A stretch of DNA of 64,000 bases from Gracilariopsis chorda (Eukaryota > Rhodophyta > Florideophyceae > Gracilariales > Gracilariaceae): the NCBI GenBank assembly GCA_003194525.1, contig NBIV01000031.1, positions 342,953 to 406,952 on the forward strand, read 5' to 3'. A program made the translations under genes and the position numbers. How positions within the stretch are numbered: position 1 is the first letter of the stretch; the number at the start of each line of letters is the position of its first letter. The notes under the pieces were generated by a model. That model was given only the letters and a program-made list of their open reading frames with translations, was not told the DNA's origin and ran no database searches. Positions 30,930 to 64,000 of the stretch are shown here, piece by piece.

Positions 30930-31282
30930 CTTCCAGCCTGCGTCTTGCTTGAAGTCCGCCCCTCTCTCCGCAGCAGACGTTTGAGGCCGAGTTGTGTGGT
31001 TGCGGGACTCTGTCTCTCTCCATCCCCAGCTGAGCACAATCACAACTCAACTCACGAAAATTAGAAACGTATGCCACTTGGAAAAATTGCTGTACCCTTG
31101 GTACCCTTGGTACCGTGTACGTGCTGTACTCGTATCCGCCAACCAACCCGCCGCTCCGCTGCAGCATCATCTCTCCCGTCTCCCCTCGCATTACTCCTCA
31201 CAGATCACATCTATATTCACCGCTGGTACCAAAAAGCTACGAAGGTATATATACTTGCAGCATCATCGCAAACCACGTAACC

Positions 31283-40744: not shown

Positions 40745-40892
40745 GGTCTGCTGCCGCGCTCTGCTCGACGCGCTCTTTCTCTTCGCCATAGCCGTCCTCC
40801 CCGTTCCGCCCCGTTGGAGTTCTGCGCGGGCGGTGCGCTCCTTCGCCTCCCCCCCCCCCGCCACCAACGCGTACCAGCCGCAGCTTTCCCAA

Positions 40893-40932
40893 CGTGGACG
40901 CGTGGACGCGTGGACGCGTGGACGCGTGGACA
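40893..40932. repeat. 8-bp tandem repeat
   Basis: Five consecutive units of CGTGGACG, the last one imperfect, lie between the divergent starts of the photolyase-like gene and NOT3. This is likely a promoter-region microsatellite. Confidence 0.85.
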
Positions 40933-41195
40933 CATGGCGATTTTGGCACCGCTTTACAGCTGATGCGGATCCATCATTTCAGTCAGCTGTGTCGCCTTGG
41001 AAGGGTACGCTTTGTCACCGCTCGCCATCAACAGCTGCCCACCGCCGCCATCGCCCCTCTCCCAAGCCACCAACCAGCCCACTCGAGCCGCCTTAACGCC
41101 GCCCTATCCCAATCGCAATCTCCGCTGCATCCCCTCCCTTTCGCTTCGCCTCGCACGCCCTTCTTCGTCGCCCCCCCCCAAAACTCCCAACAAAC

Positions 41196-43309: not shown

Positions 43310-44319
43310 CTATTGTCCTGAAGCATCAGTATCTTTCGCTTCGTCGGCTTTGAGCTTCTCTTCCAAAGCAAGAAGGGCTCGCTGGCGACGTCGTTCTGCG
43401 TCTCTGTCAGACGTCTTCGTCGCTGAGGGTTCAACGACGGGAAGACTCTCACTCTCCCCAGCGTTTTGCCATCTTCGCAGTACAGGGGACCAAATCAAAT
43501 ACGTTACACCGGCGATTGGAGTGATGATGGGGCGAATCGGATACGGAAAGAAAGCAGGGTACGCGAATGAATCAGAGGAGTCCCCAAAGCCCCCATCTTC
43601 CGTTTTTCTTAGGAATCGTAGATAGAACCACGCTACATGAGCTGCAAAAGCGGCAAAGCAAATGACTCCGAGCGGTGAGAGTTTCAGTAATGCCAATGCA
43701 ATTAACACCGTGATATAACAAAGCGGGAAGTATGTCGCTGAAACGCTCATGCCGCCGATGCTAACTGCGAATTCCGGATTCAGTTGCTTGAGTGCAATGA
43801 GCAGCGCAGCACAGAGGCCGCTTGTCGTTGCAATGGGCGTGAAGCTAGAGACGTGTGGAGTCAGTTTCTGGATTGCAATCAGGAATATTCGTCGGAAACT
43901 TACATATAAGTTCCTGCGCGCGTAACAACATAGGCTGCCAGCATGGCGACGCATGTGAAGCACGCCGCAGCAAAATTAACAATGAAAACATATCCGAAGA
44001 GCTGCCGAGCGCCCCACGGTGCAAAGCTATAGCGTGAAACGAGTAAAAGCAGTACCGTGTTGATTAAACTTCTTGCCGGATGCGACTCAAGATATGGCGC
44101 GGTTAAAACATTCCACACCTTTGATTGAGCTAAGGTTGCAGAAGGAAATAATGCAAAGTTTCGTAATAGCGGATCACGGAAAGCAGTCGGCGTGAGCAAG
44201 ACTGTTGTGAAACACGTTTGAGCTGCAAGAAATCTTATCAACTTTGTTGTTCCTGACGTTAACACGCTCCCTCCAGCCTGATCCCGCGTCAGTACTATGT
44301 CATGAAAAGGCTGAGACAA
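43310..44319 (-). CDS. TMEM115-like rhomboid-fold Golgi membrane protein
   Basis: Polytopic membrane protein of the TMEM115 family (DUF1751), a rhomboid-related Golgi protein without catalytic residues that is linked to retrograde transport. Two exons are proposed: 44319-43904 and 43844-43310, with a 59-base GTAAGT intron. The join keeps the frame and gives about 316 residues. Membrane segments are visible around FLAAQTCFTTVLLTPT, SLINTVLLLLVSRYSF and LFGYVFIVNFAAACFT, then after the intron SGLCAALLIALKQLNPEF, PLCYITVLIALALLKL and LGVICFAAFAAHVAWFYLRF. The KVWNVLTAPYLESH segment between the first two is typical. An upstream frame (44513-44339) could be a 5' exon joined through a 44-base GTAAGC intron; in that case MSQPFHDI is not the start. 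Confidence 0.75.
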
Positions 44320-44338
44320 ATGATAAATTCTCGCTTAC

Positions 44339-45842: not shown

Positions 45843-46268
45843 TTATTTGTCCAAACGGGTATCAAGCATAGTGAGAAGGAGTGGAATAGGGCCGACGTTA
45901 GTCAGAAGACGACAGTTTGCAGAGAACACCGCACCATGAAGTAGCCCACGCACATAAAGATTCGGTGCCTGGGCAATGAGGTCATTTAGTACCACAGCAG
46001 CTTCTTCCCATTTCATTTCGCTTTCAGAAATTCTACGCAGTATCTCCTCCAATTCCAATAATAAGTCCTTAGACCAACCAAATCCTTTGACATAGGAAGC
46101 GAATTTATTAGTAGCGTCTGGTTCAGTAGCCGCCAGTGCCAGGTTATGCGTTTCTTCATGTTCTTTCGCCTCCATATCGATGAAAGGATAATATGGAATG
46201 GAATGACCTGACATACTGGAATCGTCAGTCCTGTTGCAAATGATGGCAGTGGTGGCAGGCTTGGACAT
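45843..46268 (-). CDS. Repeat-borne small gene, intact copy
   Basis: A 141-codon frame of unknown function. The N-terminus is Ser/Thr-rich with a SIPYYPFIDMEAKEHEE acidic run. The second half is helical and hydrophobic: LLLELEEILRRISESEMKWE, then APNLYVRGLLHGAVFSANCR and a PLLLTMLDTRLDK end. A broken relative lies at 17190-17620, and the upstream sequence is conserved between the two, so gene and promoter travel as one repeat unit. It sits immediately left of the giant element. It may be transposon cargo or a member of a host multicopy family. Confidence 0.5.
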   Translation of the reverse strand: MSKPATTAIICNRTDDSSMSGHSIPYYPFIDMEAKEHEETHNLALAATEPDATNKFASYVKGFGWSKDLLLELEEILRRISESEMKWEEAAVVLNDLIAQAPNLYVRGLLHGAVFSANCRLLTNVGPIPLLLTMLDTRLDK

Positions 46269-46289
46269 AGCGAGTTGGTTGACAAGAGG

Positions 46290-46440
46290 GTGCTGGAATC
46301 ATCTGCGGCGATCACTAGATATTATATAGACACAAAAATACCCTAAGCAGGACAGTGCCATTGCCAAGCTGGTTTTGCATGGCAGGAAAGTGTCCCATGA
46401 CAGGTTGTTATGGGTTATTATCTGGACCTAGTATTAATAA
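46290..46440 (-). promoter_or_regulatory. Conserved upstream block of repeat gene, copy 2
   Basis: The reverse complement contains the same ordered strings as 17044-17150, ending in TTGTGTCTATATAATAT about 50 bases before the ATG. The TATA-like box is conserved in both copies. Confidence 0.5.
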
Positions 46441-47034
46441 CTAGAGACTATGCGCACAGCCTAATTGCGTCGGTGTTTTCGGAATGCTAGTTTGACAATC
46501 AAAAGGGAAAGAATTGAAATGGACGGATATCGACTCTTAAAACCCACTTTTGAATGAATCAATTTCCATCAAAATATTTTCACACATTCAACACTGCTAG
46601 TTTTTTGAAAGTATAAACTAGTAAAGCACTTCACATTTCCAAGTTATTTCGGACCAAAAACCGAGTCCGGACTCCGCGAAGTGGATTCCAGACTCCACTA
46701 CTACATACCTTCACATGTGAACGTGAGATTGAAAATCTGACCGGACCACCGGAACTGCCCCTTCAAATAGAAGGATAGGATGCTCAGATAAATACATATA
46801 TAGGAAATACATTAGAGTTTACAAAACATGATAGCCCTCGCTATCCTTCACTCGTTGTCAGTGTCTGCGGCCTTGCATAGTATGCACCAGTCCACGAGCC
46901 AGCGCAAAACGCTCGGCATCACCTGCTCCACTTCATCCCCGTGCGCCATAATAATTACGCTCCCGCATTTCGCTCTCCAACAACCCCTTTGCTCCCCTTT
47001 CTCCTTCCAATCCTTCAACTCTCCTTCCCGCACC

Positions 47035-50000
47035 ATGTTCCCCTGTTGCTACCCTCGCTGCTCCTTCCACGGCCGCACCACATACTCTCTTCAGAGTCAC
47101 CAACGCAGGTGCCCCCATCGCCTCACCGCCAACAAGCGTTCCTCCTCCACAGCCACCGCTCCAGTTCAGTTCCCTCCCAGGACCAAGAAGCGAAAATCCG
47201 TTCCCAACCTCTCCATCAATTCTCCTCCCCTTCCCTCTCACCGTCCTTCCGACAACGTCCCCCTCGCCGATGATGATCCATATGAACTTCAACAGGCTTC
47301 CCTCTCTCTTCAAACCCAAGACGCTTACCATATCGCAAGTCACGCCATCGGCTCCGTCTCCTCCTCAAACCCCCTTCTCCCGCCCCCTTCTCGTTCCCCT
47401 TCCCCTCTCGCCGACAACCCTCATCTCGAACAACTCGTCCTCTACATCTCCTCCATCGCATCCTCCGTCAGCACCCGCAAAGCAGACGAGCTCATCTCCA
47501 TCCTCAACCATCCAGACTTCTCCAAGTCCTCCTTCCAGACCTCCATCTCCTCCGCCAGGCAGTGCCTCGCACTGCAAGAGGACCTCTTCAAGCAACGCAT
47601 CAGCTCCAACGGCTTCATCCCTTCCACCATCACAGACAAGCGCAACACCTTCTCCGCAACCCTCTTCCAGAAACGTGCCATCGACGTCCTCAAGCAACAA
47701 CTCGCACTCGCACACCTCAACAACACCTTCTTCCAGCCGGTATCTCAATCTTCCTCATCTTCTTCGTCTTCTGGTCACCCGGCTTTCGCACATCCCATGG
47801 CTGCAGCCCTCGGAAAGAAAGTCGTCCCAGCCATCAAACAGGAAATTATGCAGTCCCCCGTCGATGACATCGTCTGGCACACCCCCCAGGAAACCGGTAT
47901 CGAATCATTCATCGGCCTCGTCCAGCTCTACTCGGACAAGTCCGCAACCTCCCTGAAAAGCTCCTCCGTCAATTCCTACCCCCTCCACGTCACGTTTCTC
48001 AACTTCTCCGATGCCCTCCGCCGAAAGTGTATATCCGAAAATCTCACACTCCTCGGATACCTTCCAACCTCCTTCTCCCCGTTTACCGCCTTCGACGACG
48101 GCGGCGACTACGTCCCGAAATCATCCTCCAACATCCCACGCGAGACCAAAATGAACCTCATTCAGCGCGCCATCTCTACCATCCTCAACCCACTCCTCAC
48201 CTCTGCGCTCCCAGGATTCTCCTTCCGTGACGCTCACGGTGTCCTCCGCCACTGCCACCCCATCCTCGCCAGCTATTGCGCAGACATCCCCGAAGCAAAG
48301 GACATCCTCGCCATCTCCCACGGAACACGGCCGCAGCACCCTTGCCCGAGATGCACCGTCCCTCGGGAACACCTCTTCCTCAATACAGATCCCATCCCCT
48401 TCCGCACACAACTCCAAACTCGAACCAATCGCAGACAGCACACCTGCCTTCTCCGCGAATCCGAGGAAGCGCAACTCGCCCGGAAACCAAAAGTGGCACG
48501 CACCAAAAAAGAAGAGGCAGCAACAGCACTTCATTCTCTCTCCCTCGCAAAGTACACTTCTCTCTTCGAATCATACCCCATCTTCAACATCACTCCGCTT
48601 CTCTCTTCTTACAACATCTTCGCCTTCGAGCCACTGCATAACTTCCACCTCGGCGTCTCTAAACTCATCAAAGCCACCGCAATCGAACGTCTCCGATCCG
48701 ATTCCCTCTTCTCCATTGTCGGTCCCAGCAAATCCAAGAGATCCTTCCAATCCATCCGCACCTCCATCCTCAAACACTCCAACTCCATTCTTGCGGCCAT
48801 CGAAAAAGATTCCCCTGCAACTGGACTCCACATAGACTTCTCCACCTCCGACAACGCTCAAGCTCTTAACGGCTTCTTCACCACAGAAGGACTCCGTGGA
48901 ATGCTCGAAGCAAAAGATTACCGCGCACTCGACATGGTATTCCCCTTCATCGGAGCATTCTTCGACAGATGCTGCAACGAAATCGACTCCTCCCCAATCA
49001 CTTCCGTCTTCACCAAGTACACAGATCTCGTTCTCTACGCCATGCGATACAACTCCACTTCCGAATGGACCGAAGACTCTCTCAAATCACTCGAACGACA
49101 GATCACATCCTTCAAACTCACAGCCACCACCGTCCTCGGACCCTACCACTCTTCGCACCTCGGTACCCTCAAGTTCCATCTCCTCGATCACATCGTCGAC
49201 GACATACGTAGATACGGAGGTCTGCACTTCAACGACGCAGGCATATTCGAACATGCCCACGTCCTCTTCAAATCTCACTACTCCAAGACATCCAAACGAA
49301 GAGCCACTGCCCACAACGAAACCATCCGCGCTATAGACCGCTCCACCGCCATCAAGGATTGGAATCCACTCTCAGCAGAACCCTCTATTGCTTCTCATCC
49401 TCCATCAAAAACTCCAACCGAACCCCGAAAACCATGCTTTGTACGCGACGGAAAACAAATCTCATTCTACGACATCTTCACTGCTGCAAAGTACCTCGGA
49501 TCCAATCCAAACGCTTCTCCAAAACTTCTTCAAGAACTCTTCTCCGCAGACACTCTCTCCATCATCTCACAACTCGGTCACACGGCTCTCCATTCGTTTA
49601 TCTCTCTCTCAATCGAATACCTCAACCTCGACCTCTCCACGAAACAACTACGTCAAACTCGTCTCACCATCCTCAACTCAGGATACGTCGTCGGCGGCTA
49701 CACTCCCACCCTCGACAATTACAACCCCGAACAAAACGAACTCATGCTTCAAGAACCTCCTGTCTCTCTCCTTCAGCGCATCTTCGCCGTTCAATCCTTC
49801 GGACCCTCGAAGTCTGCAAAATTCTCCCACATCCTCGTGGCGGGCACAAACTCCTCCTCTTCATCCAAACCCATCGTATGGGTCTCCAAGCTCATCGCCC
49901 TCGTTCGCTTCACAGTACCTTCTGCTTCCTCAACTTTCCCCACCTCGACCACAGAGGAATTTTCATTTGTACAATTTCTCGAAGTCGTACCACCTCGCGA

Positions 50001-50298
50001 CCAAGTAGATATAACCCTCAACTGTGTATCCCTTCGATGGTCAACCGATGACGAACACAACCACACCACAAATCCCGTTCCCATCTCCAAACCATCCACA
50101 GACGATAACGTTTCCCCTTGGTTCGGACTCGTTCCTTCAACTTCCATTCTCGGTGCAGTGCACGTCGTGCGTCAAAACTACCCCGTCCCACCCTTCACGT
50201 CTCGACTTCACTGGCGTTTCCATCGTTTCTACATTAACCGCTTCTATCGCGACACCGCTTCAAAGCCCTACAACCCCCATTCCACTACCCCTCCATAA
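47035..50298 (+). CDS. Plavaka-type transposase with N-terminal zinc finger (gene A)
   Basis: About 1087 residues, intronless and uninterrupted. The start at ATG 47035 begins directly with a Cys/His finger (CCYPRCSFHGRTTYSLQSHQ, then RCPH), as in fungal Plavaka transposases; the frame upstream to 46828 lacks such sense. The diagnostic core lies at about residues 295-345 (LVQLYSDKSATSLKSS, YPLHVTFLNFSDALRRK, LTLLGYLPTSF). A ADIPEAKDILAISHG block and CPRCTVPREHL follow at about 435. Later segments also fit: YNIFAFEPLHNFHLGVSKLI, and a helical region with LGTLKFHLLDHIVDDIRRYG and GIFEHAHVLFKSHYSKTSKR. Other CACTA-like transposases are the alternative. The mRNA is strikingly C/T-rich. It converges on gene B with a 64-base gap. 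Confidence 0.75.
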   Translation: MFPCCYPRCSFHGRTTYSLQSHQRRCPHRLTANKRSSSTATAPVQFPPRTKKRKSVPNLSINSPPLPSHRPSDNVPLADDDPYELQQASLSLQTQDAYHIASHAIGSVSSSNPLLPPPSRSPSPLADNPHLEQLVLYISSIASSVSTRKADELISILNHPDFSKSSFQTSISSARQCLALQEDLFKQRISSNGFIPSTITDKRNTFSATLFQKRAIDVLKQQLALAHLNNTFFQPVSQSSSSSSSSGHPAFAHPMAAALGKKVVPAIKQEIMQSPVDDIVWHTPQETGIESFIGLVQLYSDKSATSLKSSSVNSYPLHVTFLNFSDALRRKCISENLTLLGYLPTSFSPFTAFDDGGDYVPKSSSNIPRETKMNLIQRAISTILNPLLTSALPGFSFRDAHGVLRHCHPILASYCADIPEAKDILAISHGTRPQHPCPRCTVPREHLFLNTDPIPFRTQLQTRTNRRQHTCLLRESEEAQLARKPKVARTKKEEAATALHSLSLAKYTSLFESYPIFNITPLLSSYNIFAFEPLHNFHLGVSKLIKATAIERLRSDSLFSIVGPSKSKRSFQSIRTSILKHSNSILAAIEKDSPATGLHIDFSTSDNAQALNGFFTTEGLRGMLEAKDYRALDMVFPFIGAFFDRCCNEIDSSPITSVFTKYTDLVLYAMRYNSTSEWTEDSLKSLERQITSFKLTATTVLGPYHSSHLGTLKFHLLDHIVDDIRRYGGLHFNDAGIFEHAHVLFKSHYSKTSKRRATAHNETIRAIDRSTAIKDWNPLSAEPSIASHPPSKTPTEPRKPCFVRDGKQISFYDIFTAAKYLGSNPNASPKLLQELFSADTLSIISQLGHTALHSFISLSIEYLNLDLSTKQLRQTRLTILNSGYVVGGYTPTLDNYNPEQNELMLQEPPVSLLQRIFAVQSFGPSKSAKFSHILVAGTNSSSSSKPIVWVSKLIALVRFTVPSASSTFPTSTTEEFSFVQFLEVVPPRDQVDITLNCVSLRWSTDDEHNHTTNPVPISKPSTDDNVSPWFGLVPSTSILGAVHVVRQNYPVPPFTSRLHWRFHRFYINRFYRDTASKPYNPHSTTPP

Positions 50299-50362
50299 AC
50301 TATCCGTTCCACTTGAACAACTACTCGCCTCCCTCAACACCCTCCATTTCACCGTAGAGCTC

Positions 50363-52690
50363 TTACCTTGAACCATTCCTCCCATTCCCTCCGTTCTCAT
50401 TCTGCAACCTCTTCATCCACACATCCTCCGGCCGACAAGCAGCAACATAACAGTCAAGCACCCCTCCAAGTCGTTTCGTCAGGTGCTCCACGAAGTACTC
50501 ATCCCTCATTGCCAAGTAGATCTCCCGCTTCGAAGGTATCCAAAGCGCAACCGTCGCTTTCCTATTCTCATTCCCTGCTATGCGACGCGGATCCCCCTCG
50601 TCGAACCCTTCATTCTCCAATTCCTCATGGTGCCGTTCCCTCACTCTCTCCCATGCCACCCCAATTATGTTCTCCAGAGCAAGCGGGAGATACTCACCAA
50701 ACAACTTTGAAAACAATAACTGCCGTTTTCCTCCACGGCCCACATTCGTGTCCAACGCAGTCAAAACACATCCGATCCAAGCATCCAAGCGTGCCAAATG
50801 CATCACAGTTCCATCCACATAATCTGTCTTCCCTTCGCCTCCCGGTACCACCTCATATCCCATAAACTCTGCCAGCACTTCTACCGCAGCTCCGTTCTTA
50901 AAGTACATGTCCTCCCCACCAAAGTCCCTTAACCTTCGAGCAACTTGAAATCCAGAATATGTAAGATCGTCAATCGCACTCATTCTCCATGCACATAAGA
51001 TTCGGCTCTTCTCTACCTCCTTTCCCATTAACTTGCTTCTCGCTTCCTCTAACTGCTTCTTCAATTCCACATCAAGCTCCGTCCCCTCCTGAGGTCTCAC
51101 ACGTCTTGCTATCAAGTCATACCCAAGTAGCGAAAACAACTTTTCCCGTGCCGCCCGCTTCCGAACCCCAATCACATCGCTCAACGTTTGCTTCATACGC
51201 TGCCTCAAACACCTGTCCCGAGCTACGTCCTGCATACACTGAATCTTCTTACCCGCTTGTCGAATCGACTCCCATCTATGCCCTTCAATCTCAACACCAA
51301 TCAAATACTTCAAAAGTTCATTGCTTCCTCCTCGCAAACTCGGTGTATACGCCCTCATCTCCGATACGATCTCAAAGGGACACCGAGGAACAATTTCGTT
51401 CCCTCCCACTACGAATACACTCGACTCCGTCCCTTTCCCTAAGATCTCACACCGGTTCGTCCAGTTCCTCTCCATTCGATCCGTAGTAAAACAAAGCTCC
51501 GACACTTCCAACTTTGCGTAATACAATATCCTATCATACACTACCCTAGCAAATCCATAAAAGCTCTCGTCCACATCAACCACATACTTTTTACGCCTCG
51601 TCAAATCAGTGTCTCCCCCTTCAGCTCTTCTTCTCTCCGCACTCCTTACCTTTATCCCTTCCCTCAAACTGTCAATCAGCATGTTCTTCTCGATCATTTC
51701 TTCCCTCATCCTCTTCAGTTCCTCCTGTGTCAGCTTCAAAGATATCTTTAAAGTAGTATGGTCCTCCTTAAGGCTTCCAAGTTCTCCCTTTAGCGAATTC
51801 ACCTTCTGAACCAATGTAGGTCTAGACAACACACCGATCTCATCATCATCAAGGTCCTTCACAACATCGGTACTCACCACTTGCTCATCACGGGGTGACT
51901 TATTCACATTCTCTTCCGCCTCCAATCCCATTTCGAAAGATCGGTCAAATGATACCGAAATTCTTCGCCTTCTCTCCCGCATTCCTTCCGGTGTACGCAG
52001 CGCATTGCGTCCGCTTTCTTTCTCTACGTCAGGGACGATGTCCATATTCCTCGATCGGATGGGAGTGCCACCATTTCCATCTTGATCTCTCGTGGCCTCA
52101 TTCTCATGAAATACATTAGAACACCGCCCGTGCTTCTCACGTGCACTTCCTTCGGTACACCTCCCCTTCGTAATCTCATCTTCGCGCTCTCCTTCGCTCT
52201 CAGGCAAATAAACATTCACCTCTTCTTGCGCGCGCTCTTGATTACCACTGGGAGCTCCACGTCGCTTGGAATTACGACACTCCTGCACCTCCTTTCCACA
52301 CGACAAGACCTTCCTCACTCCTGAGCCTTCAGCGCGTGCCTGCTCGGAAACACCATCTCCCTCCACTCCGCTCCTGTCGTGTTTCGCAGCTTCCTCGTTG
52401 GATCTCCGCTTCATCCGTTGCACGCGCCTTGGTTCCTTGCCAGACCGCGCCTCTCGGGAGAGCTCCGGCCTCAAATTATCGTTTATCGTGCGATCCGATG
52501 CGCCACTTGGGTTTGAACCCCCTGTCCCTCCTTTTCTCCCGGACAAACCGCTCCTCGGAACGCGGGTAGCTCCTACCTGAGGTCCTTTCGTGCCACTCGG
52601 ACTTCGTTCCTCCACACCCCTCCGTCGCGTTTTCGGTGCATTCGTCGCGCCTTCCCTCCCGGCGCTTCTCTTCTTCCCCTTCACGGGCAT
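50363..52690 (-). CDS. Coiled-coil protein of unknown function (gene B)
   Basis: About 775 residues, uninterrupted, start at ATG 52690 (MPVKGKKRSAGREG). Residues 1-280 are very basic and disordered (Arg, Glu, Lys, Gly), suggesting nucleic-acid binding or a nuclear address. A coiled coil spans roughly residues 290-350 (LVQKVNSLKGELGSLKEDHT, then LTQEELKRMREEMIEKNM). The C-terminal 420 residues are a compact, mostly helical region (ESFYGFARVVYDRILYYAKL, HLARLDAWIGCVLTALDTNV, KRQLLFSKLFGEYLPLALEN) with no recognised family. It is intact like gene A and lies tail to tail with it. Such position and preservation suggest a second protein needed by the element, but no function can be named. Confidence 0.6.
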   Translation of the reverse strand: MPVKGKKRSAGREGATNAPKTRRRGVEERSPSGTKGPQVGATRVPRSGLSGRKGGTGGSNPSGASDRTINDNLRPELSREARSGKEPRRVQRMKRRSNEEAAKHDRSGVEGDGVSEQARAEGSGVRKVLSCGKEVQECRNSKRRGAPSGNQERAQEEVNVYLPESEGEREDEITKGRCTEGSAREKHGRCSNVFHENEATRDQDGNGGTPIRSRNMDIVPDVEKESGRNALRTPEGMRERRRRISVSFDRSFEMGLEAEENVNKSPRDEQVVSTDVVKDLDDDEIGVLSRPTLVQKVNSLKGELGSLKEDHTTLKISLKLTQEELKRMREEMIEKNMLIDSLREGIKVRSAERRRAEGGDTDLTRRKKYVVDVDESFYGFARVVYDRILYYAKLEVSELCFTTDRMERNWTNRCEILGKGTESSVFVVGGNEIVPRCPFEIVSEMRAYTPSLRGGSNELLKYLIGVEIEGHRWESIRQAGKKIQCMQDVARDRCLRQRMKQTLSDVIGVRKRAAREKLFSLLGYDLIARRVRPQEGTELDVELKKQLEEARSKLMGKEVEKSRILCAWRMSAIDDLTYSGFQVARRLRDFGGEDMYFKNGAAVEVLAEFMGYEVVPGGEGKTDYVDGTVMHLARLDAWIGCVLTALDTNVGRGGKRQLLFSKLFGEYLPLALENIIGVAWERVRERHHEELENEGFDEGDPRRIAGNENRKATVALWIPSKREIYLAMRDEYFVEHLTKRLGGVLDCYVAACRPEDVWMKRLQNENGGNGRNGSR

Positions 52691-52950
52691 AGCTGTTAGA
52701 TAATGTCGCGTGCTTGTGGCGGGGAAACACCGCGGCCCTAAAACGACGTGTGCCGAGCAGGAAGAACTCACGAAAAGCCACGAAGGGTTTTTGGCATTAG
52801 TTCCACCTCTCTGAAAACATGAAAAAAATTACCCTGATGTTCCTACCACTCGTTAACCGAATGGGTACCCTGACATATCGCCCCCCCATCAAGGACTTTT
52901 TCACTAAAGTAGCTATGTGGTTTACAAACTCGGTTTCTTTAGTATATAAG

Positions 52951-55900
52951 CTAGTCAATTACAATAGCTCCATCATCTATACGCAGATGCGTCTGAGTAT
53001 GCCAATCATAGACATTTCCGTATTCACTAAAGATTTCGTCCCCTTCCTCTATTTCAACAAGGGCTTCCAGCTTGATAAGCCTGTAGTCTGTTAGTTTCCT
53101 ACGGTTCAGCCCTAGGCCAGGTGAACGTTTCATCCGCACGTTAGCCTCACGCTTTTTCACAAGGCCATCTACCGTAGCATCTAAGTCCTTATCGCCTTCG
53201 ACATACTTAGGGTCGTTAATATACCCTGCAACACAAAACGGAGCTGGAACAACCCAAAGAATCGGGTTGGTTTGTTTTCCATGGTTCAGTGTTCTCCGAT
53301 GAGGTAGTGCAGAGAACTGATGCCCATGAACATCCACCTCCACCGCATATTTTTGAAAGCGATCCTTCGTCACACCCATAACTCCGTCCCCGTAGGTCTT
53401 GTGCACTTCTTTACGGTTCGTCAGATCATGATACACGAGTGTCCCATAGAAGTAGCACACTACCTCCCCTACAGCAATTCGACGAGTTGCAAACACTCCA
53501 ACACCAGCGTTATCGTGGCGAATAGTAGACTTGCTGATTCGTAGTCCATAATGCACAGCTTCCATTGCCAGCAGCGAGTTCATGTTCTCCAGATTCATCC
53601 TACCCTGCAGCACGCTAGGCCATTGATCGAAGGTCCTGCTCTTACCCAATTTGGCTACCTCTTCACTTCTCCACAGCGTCGACAGGAAGTGGACGACGTG
53701 TGGGGAAAGCATCTGGTACGGAGAAAAGCCATTGACTGCCTTCCATGACAAGGTATGCCTCAATCTGCCCATTGGAAATGCGATGACAACAGTATGGGCC
53801 ATCTTCCTGAGCTCTTGGTTCTTCTCAAGATTGGTGTTTCCCTCCCGGATTATAGAAGCAAAACGAACAATAGCAGCATGCTTTGCGTGTTCAAAGCAAG
53901 CTTTATCGTCTTCACATCCTACAAATATCCGGTGCTTCGGCAGTTCCATGCATGCCATCGCTGTAGAGAACGTCCCCGCAAAGAGGTCAACCACTAGGTC
54001 TCCTGGCTGACTAAACCTGCAAATGAGTTCCTTCAGCAATGCCCTACACTTCTGTTCCGGTCGCACCTTTTTCCTCGTAGTGATTCTCTCCGAGTTTGTC
54101 ACATTCCATAGCAGAGTTTCGCCATAAGACATAGGCGGCACCTGGTCTATGATTGCGTGATATGCCGGGTAGCGTGAAGGGATAAAATTAAAGTTCTCAT
54201 AGTTCACCATTCTGTGCTGTTGGGAATACGGGACCCCAGAGCGCACTGCATGTACGGCATACTCCGACGTCTGGTACAGCCGACAGCTCCGCCTTCCCGG
54301 ATTACCCATCGAGTTCCCCATGGATCGTACGAACTGGAGGGTTGTTCGTCCACGACAAAAGAAAAACGAGTTGTGCCAGAGTCATCTGTGTACGTAACAC
54401 TCCGCAGCACCTCCCGCCACTTCTGTATCTGATCCCACGAGCAGAACAATATAACATGCCCACCGGGACGTAGCAACTTTGAAATTCTTTTCCCTGCCCG
54501 GGCCATGGTCTTCTCGGTGAGAACATCATGACCACTGTTCTCCCGATTACGCTCCGCACGAGTCCCATATGGGGGATCCGAAAGCACGAACTGTACCCTT
54601 CCTTCAATGGATAGTTCGCTGTCCCCGGACTTGTTGTCGTCGACTTCGACAAGGTCTTGGAAACTGCAGTTGTGAAGACGGAAGCTGCGGGACATCTGCC
54701 TCTCACAGTACTCGTACGACATCAACTGATCTAAAGTCTTCGGATACGGTGGAGGTTGAACACCAGTCTCCTTCACGCTGTACGTCAGTCTCTGAGACAA
54801 TGTCGTTGTCTGCAGACCAGTAGTAGCTCTTGGAGCAGCCACACTCTCCACCACCTCTTCGACCTCATTATCAGCGATACCTTCCTTTTCATGAATACCT
54901 TCGTGCCTCCCAGCAGCAGGGTTGGTCCGTACCGGCACCATCATGATATCGTCATCTTCCCCAGGCTCCTGCTTAACAGCTTGATGAACGGCGAAATTGC
55001 TTCCATGCGATTTAGTTAGCTTAAGAGGCTTGATGGCATCCTGAACTGTAGTGACAAGAGACTCACTAAAGTCCTCAAATCGTGTAGGGAAATGCCTTGT
55101 GTTCGTGATATTGAATCTCTTTAGAGCATCCCATTTACTGGGAGCAGAGATTTCGAACAGTTTCTCTTGTACTACCACACTGTAAAGGTCCCCAAGGTAT
55201 TCCTTTGCACATAAACGAAGTCCTGTATCAACTGCGCCAGGTAGGCTCCAAGCCCATTCCACAATGTTCTCCCTGATGGTAGTGGCGTTCTTCTCCTTCA
55301 CAAATTGTTTCGAGCAGTCTTTGTGTTGAAAACCCAGGGAAGGTTCTCCAATATCTTTGAATACCATGTTACGGTAGTCCAGTCGAGTGTACGGCAATAT
55401 CATAACCTCGACGTTGGGAAAACCAAGAAATTGTGCAAAGCAATCCCATGCCCTGGTAACCAGCTGGACGCCATAGCCCACTCTCTGACATTGCAGCTTG
55501 TCAGACAGGCTCACCTTCGAGAACTTCGTACTAGACATTCCGAATTTCCTTTTTCTACCACTCGCTTTCTTATGCAACGAGATGTTCTGCACCATAGACA
55601 AGGCTATGAAGAATTCGAAATCCGTGCAAGGTTTGGTGTGGAAAGGAGAAGAGTTATTGATGACGCCTAGCACTCGAGACTTGAAGAACACACTTAGCAA
55701 TACATTGCGTGGTATACCCTTATGCACCTCGCTTCCACAATAAAGCTCCCAAAAGTCCCTCACGCGTCGGTCCCCATCACCATCCTTCAGGTCCACTACC
55801 CTTGCCATCAAGTACATCTGACGTGCCGGACCCCTAGAAGCGACTTTCCGTAGCTCGGAATCGGAGTACGAGGTGTAATCCGGTCCGATGAGAGTATAGA

Positions 55901-56132
55901 ACATTTGCTTCACAGACTCATGAACGTTTCGGGTTTCCACCGCGAACGTCAAGAAATCGCTGTGCTTCAGACCTCTCGGCTCGTCAAAGTTTTGCCTCGT
56001 CGCCACGTAGGCGTCGCGAATACCCAGGTAAGCAGCAAGAAGCTGGTCCCCAGTTCCATGCATCTTACCGCTTCCCGAAGCACTCCCGGTGGCGGCCGAC
56101 CTCACATTAACTTCTTCGACGGAGGAGCCCAT
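52951..56132 (-). CDS. Amino-MTase plus SET-domain fusion protein (gene C), one interruption
   Basis: Two overlapping frames (56132-54204 and 54321-52951) together encode about 1050 residues. Residues 1-420 are unrecognised. An amino-type (N6-adenine or N4-cytosine) DNA methyltransferase follows: motif IV FVLSDPPYGTRAERN at residue 519, LRPGGHVILFCSWDQIQKW, then in the second frame GDLVVDLFAGTFSTAMACME (SAM-binding FxG) and a CEDDKACFEHA turn. The order IV before I is that of bacterial beta-class enzymes. The C-terminal 230 residues form a SET domain: GVGVFATRRIAVGEVVCYFY, VAGYINDPKY, ANVRMKRSPG and EIEEGDEIFSEYGNVYDW. The frame change lies between 54240 and 54305, inside the methyltransferase. 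A 35-base GTAAT...CAG segment (54305-54271) would restore phase if spliced; an indel is the alternative. Confidence 0.7.
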
Positions 56133-56455
56133 GATATACCTCGATGGCTATGCAGCTAGTTTGAAAATGAACGGACGTGGGGGAGGAACGCGATACTCCA
56201 CACGTTCGGAGCGGTCGCGGAGCAAAGAGAAAGTGGTTACCGTGTTTTTCGGTGGTCGTCAATGACCAAAAGTTGCAATCACGCGGATGAAGATTGGCAG
56301 GTTTTCGGAATCGTTGTAATGCTTGTGAGCCGGCGTGGTTGCACTGCGATGATAGGAGAGAATATCTGCGCATCGACACCGATTGCATGAAGGAGCGCGG
56401 CGGTCAGAAGATCATTGCGAGCAACTATGCTGATGTTGAACTGCTAGGGGGGTGG

Positions 56456-56531
56456 AGGTCCGTGGACCGGAGTGTCGTGGCGCTTCATCAGGCGCCTGAT
56501 GAAGCGCCACGACACTCCGGTCCACGGACCT
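56456..56531. repeat. Perfect 76-bp palindrome
   Basis: Two 38-base arms meet without a spacer between 56493 and 56494 (centre CAGGCGCCTG) and match at every position. The ends read AGGTCCGTGG...CCACGGACCT. A further GGTGG/CCACC pair extends it past a 3-base bulge. Such a perfect palindrome can extrude as a cruciform and is unusual outside replication origins, hairpin telomeres, regulatory sites or recent inverted duplication. Confidence 0.95.
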
Positions 56532-56538
56532 TCGCCAC

Positions 56539-56677
56539 CCAGCTGTTCAGAAAATCAAAAAATTAGTGTAAAATGAACCATGCATCTTCCGCCCATGACC
56601 TACTAGGTCGTACCGCAGATGTCCGTTCATTCCAGACACTAATTTTAAACTAATTTTTTGATTTTCGGAACTGCTGG
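56539..56677. repeat. Inverted-repeat unit, MITE-like
   Basis: A 29-base arm at 56539-56567 (CCAGCTGTTCAGAAAATCAA...) is matched at 27 of 29 positions by the reverse complement of 56649-56677. The unit is 139 bases long. The hexamer CGCCAC occurs directly left (56533-56538) and one base right (56679-56684) of it, like a target duplication. It begins only 8 bases after the palindrome and ends 84 bases before the ATG of gene D. It may be a small non-autonomous transposon or a paired binding site. Confidence 0.7.
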
Positions 56678-56760
56678 CCGCCACGTGGTGTAAGAGTTCT
56701 ACGAAGACGAAGAAGCATTGTCCCAGGAAATCCGCTTCGCTGCGAAGGCCTGACATAGAA

Positions 56761-59700
56761 ATGCCGACTACGCGAGGAAAAGCGAAAAGCATGGGCAGCT
56801 CCAGAGCTTCCAACCTTTCCACGCCTCCGCCCGCTCAACGCGATGCAAACAGAGAGCTCCATGGTGGGGCGTCTGTCAATATGTTTGTGCGAATCGGTAA
56901 TAGCGATGAAAAGGTGAAGGTTGGCAAAGCACAATTGCGGGGTATGGACGTAGCGGGTGGATCTGGGCCTGGAACAGGACTCTGCCGATCTCTGCATCGC
57001 CATCCGTTGTCGTCTTACCAGAAAGAGGGACAGGATTTGGTAGTGATATGGAAGGCTAATATATCGTCACATGGAGATGAAAGGTATCCGTACGTATTTG
57101 GAGGTCCTGAGGAACCGCCCGCTACTCTGAAGGAGATGGTGTCTGCAGGGCTGTATGCGTGGGACACTGCAATGATGAGCAGTAGGGAGGAAGTGGGAGA
57201 GGGGGGTGAGTCGGTTCCACCGCAGTCAGCAATAAATGTGAAGGCTGCGCAGCCAAGCACTAGTGCTAGTACTGCAACGACTCCTATGAAGCCAAAGAAG
57301 CCCCTGGCCACTCCGAAGACCCTTTCGAAGCAAAAGAACCCCCCCGCGACCAAACAGAAGAAGCCGCTGGCGACTCCGAGGGTACCTGGTACACGTAGGA
57401 GGCTCGTTTCAACTGCCTCTGGTACGCCGTCAAGCATTTTGACGAGTAGAGCACCAGTTAAAAGGATTGAGAGTGGTGAAGCGGCCTCAGGTCCTGCCGA
57501 TATAGAACCCTTTCCAAGAGGAAGCTCAGGAACGAGAGGCCGTGGCCGTGGAAAGGGAGATGTGACACCGCGACCTGCTAGCAGAGGAGTTAGAAAACCG
57601 CAGGAAACTGAACGTGAAGAGGTGTCTGCTCCCCTCATTATTCCTGAGGCACAAGAGGAAGCGAAAGAGGTGGTAAGCGTGGAAGACTCTGATGATGACG
57701 TCATAGAGGTGCCGCGACAGTCCAAGAAGGACCTCACCCCAGAGGAGAGGGTTTTGTATGATGAGGGGGATGTAGTTGGTTCAGAAGCGGTGGACAGAAC
57801 CTTAGGTGTTTTGAACATCAATCATGACGACTATGAGCAACATGATTGTGTCATTGACGTACACATGATTCGATTTCCGAAGAACATGGTACGGTCAAAG
57901 AATGAGAAGCACCTTCGAGAGACGTCGAACAAACTGCCAAAATTCGGATGGCTTCCTTCGCTTGGGTCTATTGCAGTTGCCCTAGCGGAGGACGTACCGC
58001 TGAGTGAGGCTATCGATGCGAACGGGCGGCTGGTTGTGCCTGTTGTTCTTGTAGACGGCTACCATCGCATCACTGTTTTGCTGGAGTTGGAGAAGGAAGG
58101 TGGGAAATAGGCTCGTATTGTTTCCGGGTTGAACGTGACACTCTGGAAGCGCAAGGACACGCAAAGAATGACTTTCAATGAGGTGTTATGGCTCGGAAAG
58201 ACGTTGAATGATTTGAGTTCTAATGTTCTGGTGATGTCTTTTGCTGATAGGATTCACACTACGGTTTCGTTTATTCGCAATGGCGTAGAGCAGGACGGTT
58301 ATGACATACAGAAGCTGACGCCAAGCCAAATAACGGGGGTGCTGTGGAGCAGTGACACTGAAGGAAATGAAGGAAGGATACGCCATTTCAATCGACATTC
58401 CGCTCTTGCTCTGAAGTTTGCACGGAACCCGGGGTTGCTCGAGTTCTTCGATGGCGTATGGCAGGAAACACCTCAAATTGGGGTTACCCATGTGTCTAGT
58501 GACATGCTGCTCCGGATGTCTGCGGATAGGTTTCGTTTTACTATCCAATGTCTACAGGCACACGTGCGAGTGAGGTCCGCCGCTACGGTGAGGATGGGGC
58601 CGTTTGAGGATTTCCGAAAGTACTTCTTTCACTGCGCTTCTAAAGTGTATGACCTATGCATTGAACTTGGTAGAACTATGAAGAAGAAGAAAGGCGTAGA
58701 GGAAGTGATGAGTATACCAATGAAGATTGGAGATTCGGACCAGATGGTATCCAAATATATCGTATCGCGTCTTGGAAAGTGGTATACGAAGGGGAAACAC
58801 AGTTCTTTGGAGTCGAGGGTGGAGAATAAGGTGAGAGAGATACGTAGGACGTTGTATAGAGCTCTGAAGGAGGACGGGCCACAGGATTCAGAGCCGGTCC
58901 TCGATCAATCTGTTGAACCGAAGTTGCTCGGTTTATACGAGTCGACTACCTTGAATTCGGCTACCTTGGAGCCTAGACGAAGTAAGAGAATCGCCGATGG
59001 TCGGGTGGGGAACTCCAAGAAAAGGAAAGCGGAGGTCCTTGACAGTGATAGTGCCAAAGCCTTTGAACCATCACTGAAGAAGCCGAAACGGCCGCAGCGG
59101 AAAGGGCCGAATCGAAACCCCACGAAGACAGGAGGCGTGAACAGACCGAGTATTGCGCGAGAGGTAGTGGAGGTATTGCGCAGTATGGGGAGATGGGAAC
59201 TGAAGAGGTGGTTGAATGATGAAGATATCATTGCCCTGTCGTCTAGTGAAGATGAAGCAAAGGACGACTTCGAGTTTGATGAAGAGAATGAGGAGGGGCA
59301 GCAGACTGCAGGAAGGTTTGAGGATAGCAATCCGGAAAAGCTTCCGGAGGGGTTAAGTCGCCCAGCTGACGTGGCTACGGGGTCGTACATGTCTTGGTTA
59401 GACCTCGTGTACTCGTTGCCGAGTGAGTGGCTTGGGAACGAGAACGGAGTGAAGCATCCGCATCCATGGATGCAGAGGATTCACTTGAGGAAGAATCATC
59501 GAGCTGAGTGCTTGTCAGTGGAGGACTTCCGGATGGTGCACCATGCTGTGTATTGGAGGGCATCCCGTAACATGCACAGGGAAATGGGAACGACGAGGCA
59601 TCCGGTGCTGGGAGTGAAGATGCCGAAATCCGGAAACCCTACAGATGAGGACGAAGCATTATGGATGGCTGCGTTTGAGAGGGAGGATTTGGCTCGCGTG

Positions 59701-60771
59701 TACTTTGCAAAGAAGAGAATGGAACTTTCAGAGAGAGGTTTCTGTGTGTTGGAGGAGTTTGGGACGGATGAAGGTATGGCTACTGCGGCGATGAAGAAGG
59801 GTGTGAAAGTGGATGAGGATGTGGTAGGGGAACTGATGGAGTTCTTTAGAAGTGATTTTGAATCGCAACCGGACCTTGCGGATGAGAGGAATAGGATGTT
59901 TTGGAATCTCATCATTAATGCGGGGGGAGAGAGGGATGCTTTGAACCTCCTAAAGGCAGTGGGACGTTTTATAACAACGAAGAGGGGGATTGTGGATAGA
60001 ATTGAGGCGCTCAAAAACGCTGCAGTGCTTGTGCGGAAGAGGGCGTTGTTGGATGCAAGAATTGGTCAGATTGCGGCAGCACTTTGGTTGACTGAGCGAA
60101 ACTCAGAAGGTGGAGCGATGTATGCGCCTGAAACTGGTGGTCGTGTATTGTGTACTGGAGAGGATTGCCCTAGGCAAGTGTTGCACACTGATTTTAGGAA
60201 TCTGTCGGAGGCGGATAGGAAGAAGGAAGCAAACCCGGGCTATTTCGTAATGGCATCTGGGCCAGATGCGTTCATGATTTGGGTATGCGAGAGGTCTCAT
60301 AACCTGACTATGACTCGGGAGAACGTGAAACGGCTTTCTGGTTCTATGGTGGTGCGAAAGGTGAGGATTCCGCCGTTTTCTGTGTTTATTGGAAGAGGGG
60401 ATGTATTCCACGCTGGAGCTGGGTATGATGATGCGATTGTGAAAGGGTATTGCTTCCGCTACCATATGTATCTTGTGCCTGACGGATACAATCTCCCGGA
60501 TGCTGTACATAGACAGGTCGGATTTACACCTCGATTTGAGGAGGAAGAGGAAGATGAAGAGATGGAGGTGGGAGGTGGTAGTTCTGATGATGGAGACGTT
60601 GATATGGACGATGTGGAGGGGAACAATCAGTCAGACGATGAGGAGGAGGATTACGTATGGAAGCCCGTGGAGATGAATACTGATGGGGATTATGAACAGG
60701 ATGATGAGGAGGGAGAGATGGTCCCTAAAGGATTGCAGGGTCTGATAGGAGAGGACGATGAAAGTGATTAA
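56761..60771 (+). CDS. ParB-like plus 2OG-Fe(II) dioxygenase protein (gene D), in-frame TAG
   Basis: Two frames in the same phase (56761-58107 and 58111-60771) are separated by a single TAG at 58108-58110. The upstream part (449 residues) has a Pro/Lys/Thr-rich, probably DNA-binding stretch (PKKPLATPKTLSKQK), an acidic patch and a ParB-like fold ending in VPVVLVDGYHRITVLLELEK. That fold continues naturally after the stop (RIVSGLNVTLWKRKDTQ). The second part carries basic and acidic linkers. Its C-terminal double-stranded beta-helix dioxygenase shows RQVLHTDFRN (His and Asp ligands, about residues 686 and 688 counted from 58129), VFIGRGDVFHAGAGYDD (His 761) and CFRYHMYLVP (Arg 777 for 2-oxoglutarate). 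It ends in a long acidic tail. A CAG-to-TAG change would explain the stop; read-through is the alternative. The substrate is unknown. Confidence 0.65.
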
Positions 60772-60904
60772 TGATGATAAGTAGTATATATGGTGATAAA
60801 CTTTTGTAAAACTTGACTTAAATTAGTGCAATGTGTTTATTCGTTTCTTTTGAAATGGATGTGAGCAAGTATCATACTCATGATGGGTCTTCTATTGAGT
60901 ACTA

Positions 60905-61225
60905 TCATACAATATGGAACTGGATAACGTCTACGAGCCTTGTATGGAGGGGGGCTGGGTCCTTAGCTCCAGCTTCCTTCAATTTTCTTGAGATTTCGTA
61001 GAAGAAACCGTTTCGAACGTGAAACTCAGAGAAGGAGGCCTTGAGGGATGTGAGGGATTTTCCGTACTTGAGTAGTGCTTCCATGGAGTGCTCATTGGTG
61101 AGAGTATTATGATGAATTCGTGTATGAAGAGCTACAAGGCGCAAAAGTTCTCTCATCACGACGGGTACCTCCTCCCGATGTGTTGTTGCGACATAAGGAT
61201 GAGGAGGGAAGCGACTTTCTGACAT
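60905..61225 (-). CDS. Small helical protein (gene E)
   Basis: A 106-codon frame starting MSESRFPPHPYVATTHREEV, mostly helical (VVMRELLRLVALHTRIHHNT, then LLKYGKSLTSLKASFSEFHV). It has a good ATG, regular composition and lies alone between D and F. No family is recognised. It could be an accessory protein of the element or a chance frame. Confidence 0.45.
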   Translation of the reverse strand: MSESRFPPHPYVATTHREEVPVVMRELLRLVALHTRIHHNTLTNEHSMEALLKYGKSLTSLKASFSEFHVRNGFFYEISRKLKEAGAKDPAPLHTRLVDVIQFHIV

Positions 61226-61786
61226 GTTGAATAGATGTAAATAGAGGGACAGGGTGATGGGAGTGGAAAAGATGACGCCATTTGTGTTGGATGATGTTTA
61301 ATAGTGAAGGGATGATGTCTGGAAAGATGAAGCTCTGTTATATTTTATTAAGAGAGGTACAGGTATAAGAAGAAACTTGGTGGGCGGGTATATCGGTGGG
61401 GAGAATAAAGAAAGGTATAGTGGACAAATCATATGAGATATGAATGTAAATGAAAGTGAATATGTAATTATTTATGAGAATAAAAGGAGATTGTAGGGAT
61501 GTGAAGCACGACATTGCTACAGGGAAAGACTGCGGTTCCCAAATGTGTCCATAGTGAAGGTAGTGGTTCCTTTCATATCAGAATGCGGTGTGGGGTGCAA
61601 GCAGTGCTTGATTTATGAAAAGGAGTGTAGACACTGAATGCATTATCGTGTACTGGTTCAAAACACTGCTTCGCGTGTTTGGAATTGGGAGGGTTTAGCA
61701 AGTCGGAGGATGGTACGTTGTGCATATAAGCGAGGAAGAGGTTGGTTCAAGTGGGGAGGAGGTACAATCGTGATCGACATTCAAAC
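61226..61786. other. Intergenic between E and F
   Basis: Purine-rich on the plus strand, no coding signal. It should hold the divergent promoters of E and F. Confidence 0.35.
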
Positions 61787-62984
61787 ATGGCATTCGAGAA
61801 CATCCACAAGCACCACGACTACTATTTGCAGTCTTCCGAGAGTGACCGGAGGACTCGTGCGTATCTGAATATCTTTCCGAATGAGACGGTGATTCGGTTT
61901 GACGAAGTACTTGAAATTCGGTATAGTACGGATACGGAGAAGGGTGTTGTGCGAGGGGCGTCAAGGTTGCTCACCGCGGGTGTTTTGGAGGATGTGACGG
62001 AGATATACGAGGTTCTAGACGAAGTACCGACACATAATTATATCTTAACGAATTCAAATTTTTTGCACGTGCTGTACGGGAGTACTCATTTGATACAATA
62101 TCTGGAGAATGCGCCAAACCTTTCTAGAAGCCCTCGTCATATGTTCAGTTTCAGGGCTTGGTGCGCATATGCGTTTCTGTTTTCATTAGCCATTGGTGCT
62201 CTTTATGGGGTATTGAAACCGCTTTTGATGCATTATGTGGTAGGGGATGTTCGAATGTCTCCGAAGATGTTGATTGTGGTAATTCTGGAGACTGTTTTGC
62301 ATTTGTTTATCTTCGATATGGTGTTTGCATTGCATAGAAGGCATTTTGGTTCATTGGCATACGTACCTTTGCGGGACAGCCAGCGAATGGCACGGATTTC
62401 TGTGATTCGAAACAGACTACTTGGATTCACGATGGCAGGTCTTTTGCCGTTGAATGTTTGTATTTTTGTTGGCTATCACTTCTTGGAAGCGCCAATTTCG
62501 ATTGGAATGGAACTTAGGACTGGTGCTCTTGCATTTTTCACTGGTGGTTTCATGTTTGGGGGTATGTCGTATGTGGTTGAACGGCTAACGATGTTTTTTT
62601 GTGACTAGGGACAGCATTAACAATGAGAGAGAGCTCCCATATGTGCAGAGAGGTAGTGTTGGGCTGATTTTGGATGTGTGCAGGACCGTATACGGTGGTT
62701 TGAATAAGGTGCTTGGGTTTAGAGATGGTGTGGCTACTATGAGGCTCTATATCGGAAGGGTGTTCCCTGTTGTGTTTACCTACTTGATTTTCACGTTCCT
62801 GAGCGATACTTCTTTGCACAAGGTAAGGGGACTCGCGCCTGTAGTGGAGAATACTATCTTTTTCGTGCTGCTTCTTTTGGGTATGGCTGTGGATATGGAC
62901 TTGGAGTACCATTTTCGAAGGTATGTTGCGAATCTAGGAGAGCACTGTAGGCCTGTTGGTTCTCGTTTTGAACCATTTCTTTAG
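61787..62984 (+). pseudogene. Polytopic membrane protein (gene F), one frame change
   Basis: The start is ATG 61787 (MAFENIHKHHDYYL). A soluble N-terminal part of about 110 residues (RAYLNIFPNETVIRFDEVLE, LLTAGVLEDVTEIYEVLDEV) precedes four hydrophobic segments (AYAFLFSLAIGALYGVL, MLIVVILETVLHLFIFDMVF, RLLGFTMAGLLPLNVCIFVG, ALAFFTGGFMFGGMSYVV). The frame stops at 62608. The next frame (from about 62601) continues with two more (VFPVVFTYLIFTFL, NTIFFVLLLLGMAVDMDLEY) and ends at 62984. The switch falls at a run of seven T (62594-62600), so a single-base slip, a sequencing error or recoding could explain it. About 398 residues in total. Family unknown; a membrane protein is unusual transposon cargo. 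Confidence 0.5.
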
Positions 62985-63228
62985 ACACGTTCGTAGTTCT
63001 ACCTGTACATACCTAAGTTAGTGTGATAGAGTTGTTAAACTGAAGGAAGTGTTAAACTAATGTCGTTCTAAATTTTTCGTTTCAGATTATTGGTGGGACA
63101 CGACTCGGTGGGAAATGGCGCGAAAACGGGCGAGTGAAAAAAATGCGGTTGGATAAGTACCTGGGGAGTGCTCGCTTGGTGGTTGGGTTAGGAACGGGAG
63201 CGCCGTTGTGGTGGGGCGTGTAGTAGCC

Positions 63229-63951
63229 ATGTCTAGCGAAGACGTGAATGATGAGGAGCTACTGGCGTTGTTGGATAAAGCGGAGAAGAGGGAGGTCCCC
63301 GAGACGCCTCCAAGGACGAAGAAGGAGGAGGAAGGGAAGGGTGATGGTGAAGAGGGCAAGGGAAGGAACGTTGTTGGGTTCGGGGAGCTTGGGTTGGGAC
63401 GATGATGGGAGGGGATGGGGGGAGGGAAGTGAGGGCGAGGGAAGTCGAGGAGGACGGGGGAGGAGGAGGAGGTGGGGCGGGGCGAATGAGTCGGTTTTAC
63501 CGCGATGTGAAGAAACTGGTGAGGAGCGTGGGCGGAGGGCTTAAGGAGCGTTTTGGATGAGTGTATCGAGGAGGTTGTGGTGGAAGATGGGGGGGATGGT
63601 GCTGAGTTCTTCAGAGGAAGGGGTGCCTATGGGTGCTGTGGGCTGAGCTGCGTAGGAGGGCAAGGGAGGCTGGGGTGTGGGCGGAAATGCATGTCGATGG
63701 GGTTGTGGCGTGTGTGGGTGAGGGAGCTGAGGAGACTGTGGAAGGAGAACGAGGAGATGCGTAGACGGGTTTTGGTGTTGGAGAAGCAACTTTTACTGGT
63801 TGGTAGGGCTGTGCATCTAATCGAGGAAATGCAGAAGAAGGTGTGTGATGCGGAAGGGAGAGCTGTTGTCGGGGAAGGCACTCCTGTTACTCCCGGTCGA
63901 GGGGCTGTAAGGAAGAGGTTGGAGGAGAAGGACGACGAAGGAATAAGGTGA
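63229..63951 (+). pseudogene. Decayed coiled-coil gene (gene G)
   Basis: The ATG at 63229 opens an acidic start (MSSEDVNDEELLALLDKAEK...). The frame stops at 63405. Coding-like pieces continue in other frames: MSRFYRDVKKLVRSVGGGLK near 63486, ECIEEVVVEDGGDGAEFF from 63553, WAELRRRAREAGVWAEMHVD near 63625, and a terminal coiled coil (LWKENEEMRRRVLVLEKQLL) that stops at 63951. At least three frame changes within 700 bases, in G-run-rich DNA, suggest decay or sequencing errors. The reading may extend past the window. Function unknown. Confidence 0.4.
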
Positions 63952-64000
63952 GAGTCGGTTGAAGAGGAGGCGTGGAATGAGAGGATAAGGAGAAGAAGGA

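Follow-up and report, generated by a model that had tools for sequence, protein, structure and literature searches.

A putative giant Plavaka-type transposon with a DNA methyltransferase-SET gene and a continuous GC-skew gradient in the red alga Gracilariopsis chorda

Plavaka-type transposons are already known to form giant elements, as in Amoebidium appalachense, where giant Plavaka repeats carry intron-poor genes (PMC11244446), and to capture DNA-modifying enzymes, as in Agaricales fungi, which harbour TET/JBP-bearing Plavaka families (PMC12730594). Bdelloid rotifers furthermore possess a bacterial-type N4-methylcytosine (4mC) methyltransferase (PMC8885841), and in SETMAR a SET-type lysine methyltransferase is linked to a DNA transposon (PMC9062482). 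Here we analyse a 64,000-nucleotide stretch of DNA from the red alga Gracilariopsis chorda (the window; contig NBIV01000031.1, positions 342,953 to 406,952), the last part of which we are inclined, with modest confidence, to read as a single large DNA transposon of the CACTA-related Plavaka type, at least 17 kb long, that carries a DNA methyltransferase-SET gene, called D/C below, and that may mark itself.

The G. chorda element resembles the Amoebidium repeats in being a giant Plavaka element with intron-poor genes, but those repeats lie in tandem clusters and contain many tyrosine recombinases, whereas the visible part of the element holds no significant match of that kind, and the methyltransferase-SET fusion found here is not mentioned for them in the accessible passages of the Amoebidium paper (PMC11244446). 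The best recombinase candidate, Phage_int_M at 63157-63405 (E 0.21; 12.3 bits where the cut-off is 27), is noteworthy only because the Amoebidium Plavaka repeats carry tyrosine recombinases. With the Agaricales families the element shares a captured DNA-modifying enzyme, but there it is a TET/JBP dioxygenase (PMC12730594) and here an amino-methyltransferase together with SET, no TET/JBP match having been found for the open reading frame (ORF) F of the element. The likeness to bdelloid rotifers lies in a bacterial-type DNA modification in a eukaryote (PMC8885841), and that to SETMAR in a SET-type lysine methyltransferase tied to a DNA transposon, SETMAR however being a fusion with the Hsmar1 transposase and, in the passages at hand, having no DNA methyltransferase (PMC9062482).

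The Plavaka-type transposase named in a preliminary description of this DNA is borne out by ORF A (46816-50298, forward strand), an uninterrupted frame of 1160 residues from stop to stop that matches the Plavaka transposase family PF18759 over residues 321-614 with E 2.7e-21 and 76.6 bits against a cut-off of 26.3. By eye, a possible start methionine lies at about 47035, with several methionine codons upstream. The same description had proposed a DNA amino-methyltransferase fused to SET, and both domains indeed lie in one frame of ORF C (52951-54381, reverse strand), the gene being however split by a frame change between ORFs D and C. In ORF C a beta-class amino-methyltransferase is represented by its C-terminal half (about 53881-54312; PF01555, E 1.4e-12), together with a SET domain (about 53017-53505; PF00856, E 3.6e-5) that scores 24.6 bits against a curated cut-off of 22.4 and, when searched alone, 27.2 bits (E 5.4e-6) against the same cut-off. 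In the PDB the methyltransferase part matches DpnA and CcrM, and the SET region gives weak matches to KMT2 and KMT5A (best E 0.018). ORF D (54204-56147, reverse strand) consists of about 480 residues without a family followed by the N-terminal half of the methyltransferase with a DPPYG motif (about 54297-54674), which tblastn aligns to the PhiCh1 adenine methyltransferase with E 8e-4. In beta-class DNA amino-methyltransferases the DPPY motif comes first and the C-terminal FxG S-adenosylmethionine motif after it, and this order is kept here, with DPPYG in D and then DLFAG in C. Since both halves also align in order to M.PhiCh1-I in one-sequence comparisons (E 2e-11 and 1e-8), they appear to belong to a single domain that a frame change somewhere in 54204-54381 has divided. 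Judged from its sequence, D/C is thus a bacterial- or phage-type beta-class (CcrM/DpnA-like) DNA amino-methyltransferase joined to SET. The CcrM and DpnA matches suggest N6-adenine as the target base; beta-class methyltransferases also include N4-cytosine enzymes.

At E 0.1 ORF C matches 190 of 50,697 phage and 164 of 72,556 plasmid records, but among the best 25 of the 190 and the best 15 of the 164 the methyltransferase part alone is covered, no phage or plasmid record spans 80% of ORF C in one place, and the SET part alone has no phage match at E 1. Haloviruses have ParB-methyltransferase proteins such as M.PhiCh1-I, a beta-class enzyme related to D/C in both halves, and phage proteins that carry a ParB-like annotation have homology to the N-terminal region of the PhiCh1 adenine methyltransferase. 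In M.PhiCh1-I the ParB-like part is however within the same protein and no SET was seen, whereas in G. chorda a ParB-like motif that failed profile testing occurs in the divergent neighbour gene E. The rotifer 4mC methyltransferase likewise differs from D/C, as it is reportedly a host gene whose product has a chromodomain attached, whereas the present gene would belong to a transposon and carries SET.

That these genes form a unit is suggested by the base composition of the region. The GC skew is about -0.5 at 47 kb and climbs to +0.6 by 64 kb, and a linear fit to 43 blocks of 400 bp (46.9-64.0 kb) gives r=0.949, a zero point at 55,949 and a slope of 0.069 per kb, as against at most 0.0175 per kb in 30 overlapping windows elsewhere, while none of 20,000 block permutations reached the observed gradient. 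At four-fold degenerate sites the skew is -0.82 in A, -0.57 in B, -0.38 in C, -0.19 in D, +0.34 in E, +0.55 in F and +0.81 in G, rising monotonically from A to G independently of the coding strand, with H1 (+0.79) and H2 (+0.57) slightly under G, and crosses zero at 55628. Noncoding pieces at 50.3, 52.9, 60.8, 61.3-61.8 and 63.0-63.2 kb track the gradient as well, as does 56678-56763 (+0.07), and 56148-56436 (+0.26) lies above it. To the left of the element the GC skew is close to zero, and letting the model break at the left edge raises the log-likelihood by 199 over an unbroken one. Because the gradient continues through A to H and halts near the left edge, these ORFs would seem to constitute a long-standing single unit, and because the flank is free of skew, the skew probably arose in the element's own history and not at its present site. 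The claim of one element with a Plavaka transposase made in the preliminary description is thereby strengthened; the gradient spans 46.9-64.0 kb, and no right edge was seen inside the window.

A different view would be that an ordinary short Plavaka transposon, consisting of gene A, landed next to B to H, these being an unrelated mobile element or gene cluster. Gene A does lie at the edge and reads against B to D, and no terminal repeats joining it with B-H were seen in the window, but its skew fits the line through B-H and is the most extreme of all. Its coding strand is rich in C, unlike the G-rich coding strands of B, E, F and H, and this view is distinctly unlikely.

As to how such a skew could arise, transcription as the sole cause was rejected, since A and G oppose the outward direction of their arm yet track the gradient. 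Simple cytosine deamination, including plain deamination during strand exposure, is not favoured because the AT skew is flat, showing no gradient (p 0.07 at four-fold sites). A step model with one origin fits less well than the linear one (residual 1.22 versus 0.55), and phi29-like protein-primed replication was discarded because phi29 has a skew slope of the same sign but of a quarter of the size (+0.018 per kb) and the effect is absent in Cp-1 (+0.002) and PRD1 (0.000). An ascending linear skew would be expected of bidirectional replication that initiates over a broad zone, and the gradient suggests element-specific replication or strand exposure. In both arms the strand rich in G is the one with the 3' end, which would fit end resection too if cytosines were lost there.

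Close to the zero point, between the divergent ORFs D and E, lies a pair of hairpins, made up of a near-perfect palindrome at 56437-56549 (91% over 114 columns) and a second stem-loop at 56539-56677 with arms of 36 nucleotides that are 92% complementary. The region 56430-56690 folds with a minimum free energy of -92.6 kcal/mol (z -15.75), and none of 200 shuffles was as stable; Rfam gave no match at the gathering threshold anywhere in the window. By eye, the short direct repeat CGCCAC flanks the second stem-loop on both sides, which is why this stem-loop may be a small inserted repeat. The pair as a whole may serve as an origin or as a bidirectional regulatory site, or it may be a small repeat that was inserted here.

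If the hairpins were an origin or initiation zone, the region could instead be a virus- or plasmid-like replicon that uses the Plavaka transposase for integration only, the skew having been built by internal replication with a G-rich leading strand. Such a replicon would account for a gradient with its zero point near the hairpins and for a left flank near zero, which suggests that the skew was not made at the present site, and it would be in agreement with the membrane-protein-like ORF H and with a ParB-like motif beside the palindrome. The hairpins are however offset to the right of the zero point, by 0.5 kb from the fitted and by 0.8 kb from the four-fold one, protein-primed linear phages show no gradient of such strength, and no capsid, polymerase (polymerase B included), packaging ATPase or Rep families were found in the scanned ORFs of the visible part of the element. 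In addition, IMG/VR contains no relative of A, B, C, D, F or H (E and G were not scanned), and GTDB genomes none of A or C, these collections being viral or prokaryotic and the single-sequence queries such as detect close relatives only. We therefore hold a replicon of this kind to be unlikely. A combined version, in which a giant Plavaka element would be a self-replicating and self-marking replicon with internal bidirectional replication, a coupled DNA-adenine and histone mark and integration by the transposase, strikes us as highly doubtful.

The ParB-like motif just mentioned belongs to the long divergent gene E/F, which the preliminary description had taken for a ParB protein fused to a 2-oxoglutarate (2OG)-Fe(II) dioxygenase, and these labels were not confirmed. 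ORFs E (56662-58110, forward strand) and F (58111-60771, forward strand; 886 residues) form one frame in which a TAG stop intervenes at 58108-58110, so that the proposed fusion is interrupted in this copy. The motif, VDGYHRI at about 58050-58070, stands just before the stop and, by eye, fitting sequence lies on the other side of it; the pattern [VIL]x[DG]GxHR occurs once in the 51,921 residues of the window ORFs, and the gene that carries it adjoins the methyltransferase gene. Searches of Pfam, NCBIfam and PHROGs nevertheless gave no ParB match for this region, the weak matches being DUF5815 (E 0.098 and 0.17), phrog_22569 (E 0.42) and a histidine kinase (E 1), nor did the PDB support the label. 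An hhalign comparison of the region to phage ParB-type domains, 11 of the 51 records found, aligned the expected motif with E 0.32, but of four control proteins three did better (0.086, 0.091 and 0.12) and one did worse (0.54), and ParB as a proven assignment is therefore rejected. In ORF F, HTD (60184), FH (60406) and RYH (60457) follow each other in a 2OG-like order, an arrangement of residues that is suggestive of a 2OG dioxygenase. As an assignment by motif this is not specific, since a loose HxD...H...R-type pattern occurs 20 times in window ORFs of at least 150 residues, and no relevant match to the region was obtained in Pfam, PHROGs, NCBIfam or the PDB. Among phages and plasmids tblastn gave nothing at E 1 to back these labels, and the structure models of the two regions are too poor for use, with a mean predicted local distance difference test (pLDDT) score of 34 for the ParB-like and 41 for the 2OG-like region, so that the Foldseek search with the latter model, which returned nothing at E 0.001, is meaningless. 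Of the profile hidden Markov model searches that the preliminary description had called for with each protein, those with A and C thus confirmed its labels, and those for ParB and 2OG found no match.

The remaining ORFs offer few clues. ORF B (50363-52828, reverse strand), open over 821 residues, has no family in Pfam, PHROGs or NCBIfam and gives coiled-coil-type matches only in the PDB (E 0.28 and 0.52); by eye its N-terminus is basic and its middle coiled-coil-like. ORF H (61730-62984, forward strand; first ATG at 61787) resembles a membrane protein by its hydrophobic segments and changes frame between 61730-62608 and 62589-62984; its best family, ECF_trnsprt (E 0.069), is far under the cut-off, and the PDB gave no match. 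ORF lengths were compared with the longest ORF in 200 dinucleotide shuffles of the same DNA, and A to F and H exceeded it in all 200, whereas the length of G (60905-61297, reverse strand; 130 residues from stop to stop) was reached by 3 of 200, leaving its coding status uncertain.

A and B are open, but D/C, E/F and H are interrupted in this copy, and one may ask if the locus is a dead relic, a former element or cluster in decay whose gene set is without present function. The three interruptions speak for this when set against the inspected host genes of the window, seven of nine of which are one open frame with no evident break (SUZ12-like, LSM, lumen-like, M18, LRR, RIC1 and NOT). Among the same nine there are however a DUF1751 gene that appears to run on in a second frame and a photolyase ORF with the N-terminal domain only, and since introns or assembly errors thus occur among host genes of the window too, the interruptions of the element need not be mutations; real lesions, introns, recoding and assembly errors are all possible. 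Taken together with the open state of A and B this makes a relic somewhat unlikely, and we retain the reading of a transposon, of which this copy would be either decayed or subject to splicing or recoding in D/C, E/F and H.

The host-type genes occupy 26-45 kb and comprise VEFS polycomb, LSM, M18 peptidase, LRR, RIC1, photolyase, NOT3/5 and DUF1751 genes, which mark the window as eukaryotic nuclear DNA, and the genome around the element would appear to be intron-poor. The DUF1751 membrane-protein gene (43310-44334) seems to run on from 43900-44334 into a second frame at 43310-43975, which appears to be due to an intron, a mutation or an assembly error, and the photolyase-like ORF at 39782-40978 was matched in its N-terminal photolyase domain and in no other part. 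The ORF at 30366-31046 (reverse strand) resembles by eye a protein directed to the plastid lumen by a twin-arginine signal, and Pfam gave Sld7_C alone, under its cut-off (E 0.0022). Further to the left, at 4900-13000, there are ORF fragments that by eye resemble degraded Copia-type retrotransposons.

On the left, the edge of the element falls somewhere in the interval from 46447 to about 46920. The lower bound derives from a small host gene family with copies at 45846-46446, open and beside the element, and at 17017-17588, degraded with two stops; the copies are 48% identical in amino acid sequence and have upstream DNA in common, and the paralogous repeat can be aligned to the flank as far as 46446 but no further (69% over 435 columns), although 46446 may just be where the host repeat unit stops. 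The upper bound is the best break point of the skew, at 46.90-46.92 kb (46900-46920). On the right, a strongly G-rich tail (63087-64000) contains no ORF above chance, the length of the one in the 63-kb stretch being reached by 136 of 200 shuffles, and the element appears to continue beyond the window at 64000. A symmetric gradient would place its right end at about 65.1-65.5 kb and give a whole element of about 18-19 kb. Described Plavaka termini are 5'-TGT..ACA-3' with a 2-bp target site duplication or 5'-CATCA..TGATG-3' with one of 2-3 bp (PMC12730594). Motifs common to the left end and the central spacer were considered as transposase sites and dropped, as the 8 shared 9-mers were matched by 70 of 2000 shuffles, and a similar density of shared 9-mers was found in one of eight control stretches.

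Several observations weigh against a single element with a dual-marking enzyme. Within the window no terminal inverted repeats, target site duplication, right end or second copy were seen, the inverted pairs listed in 45-64 kb being the central hairpins plus weak chance-type pairs, and blastn finding no other copy. The noncoding piece 46447-46815, which possibly belongs to the element, has a skew near nil (-0.09), and the four-fold skew of host genes also varies, from -0.48 to +0.68 in eight genes, the latter value coming from 69 sites. As for the enzyme, D and C overlap in different frames, so that the methyltransferase is not one open frame in this copy, its match to the CcrM model reaches 34 bits against a curated cut-off of 830 and therefore points to kinship only, and its methyltransferase activity, the modified base (N6-adenine) and the SET target are all predictions.

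The model of an element that writes and oxidises or reads marks, put forward in the preliminary description, is thus supported at the domain level in its writing half, the amino-methyltransferase and SET, and finds no support in its oxidising or reading half, for which the 2OG and ParB labels had been invoked. On the reading we prefer, the transposase would, going by its family, move the element by cut and paste, and the D/C fusion would set one mark on DNA and another on histones at the same site, most probably in the chromatin of the element itself, where the marks may prevent silencing or label the element as self, E/F being a large accessory protein that carries the ParB-like and 2OG-like motifs. 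The methyltransferase-SET gene in a Plavaka element is probably new, pending ends and copies. None is described in the passages of the Plavaka literature examined, nor in the titles and opening lines of abstracts among the matches listed for methyltransferase, SET, ParB, red-algal, GC-skew and giant-transposon literature, and nothing on such an element was found in the portions available of a 2025 survey of eukaryotic N6-methyladenine or by word searches of two Gracilaria papers (virus, giant and transposon; Plavaka in one).

A fused DNA and histone methyltransferase on a mobile element would mean that the element exerts dual-mark control over its own chromatin, and such an element is a possible source of bacterial-type DNA methylation in eukaryotes. 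If furthermore the skew gradient recurs in other copies, it would be a clue that some transposons of the "cut-and-paste" type replicate in a way of their own.

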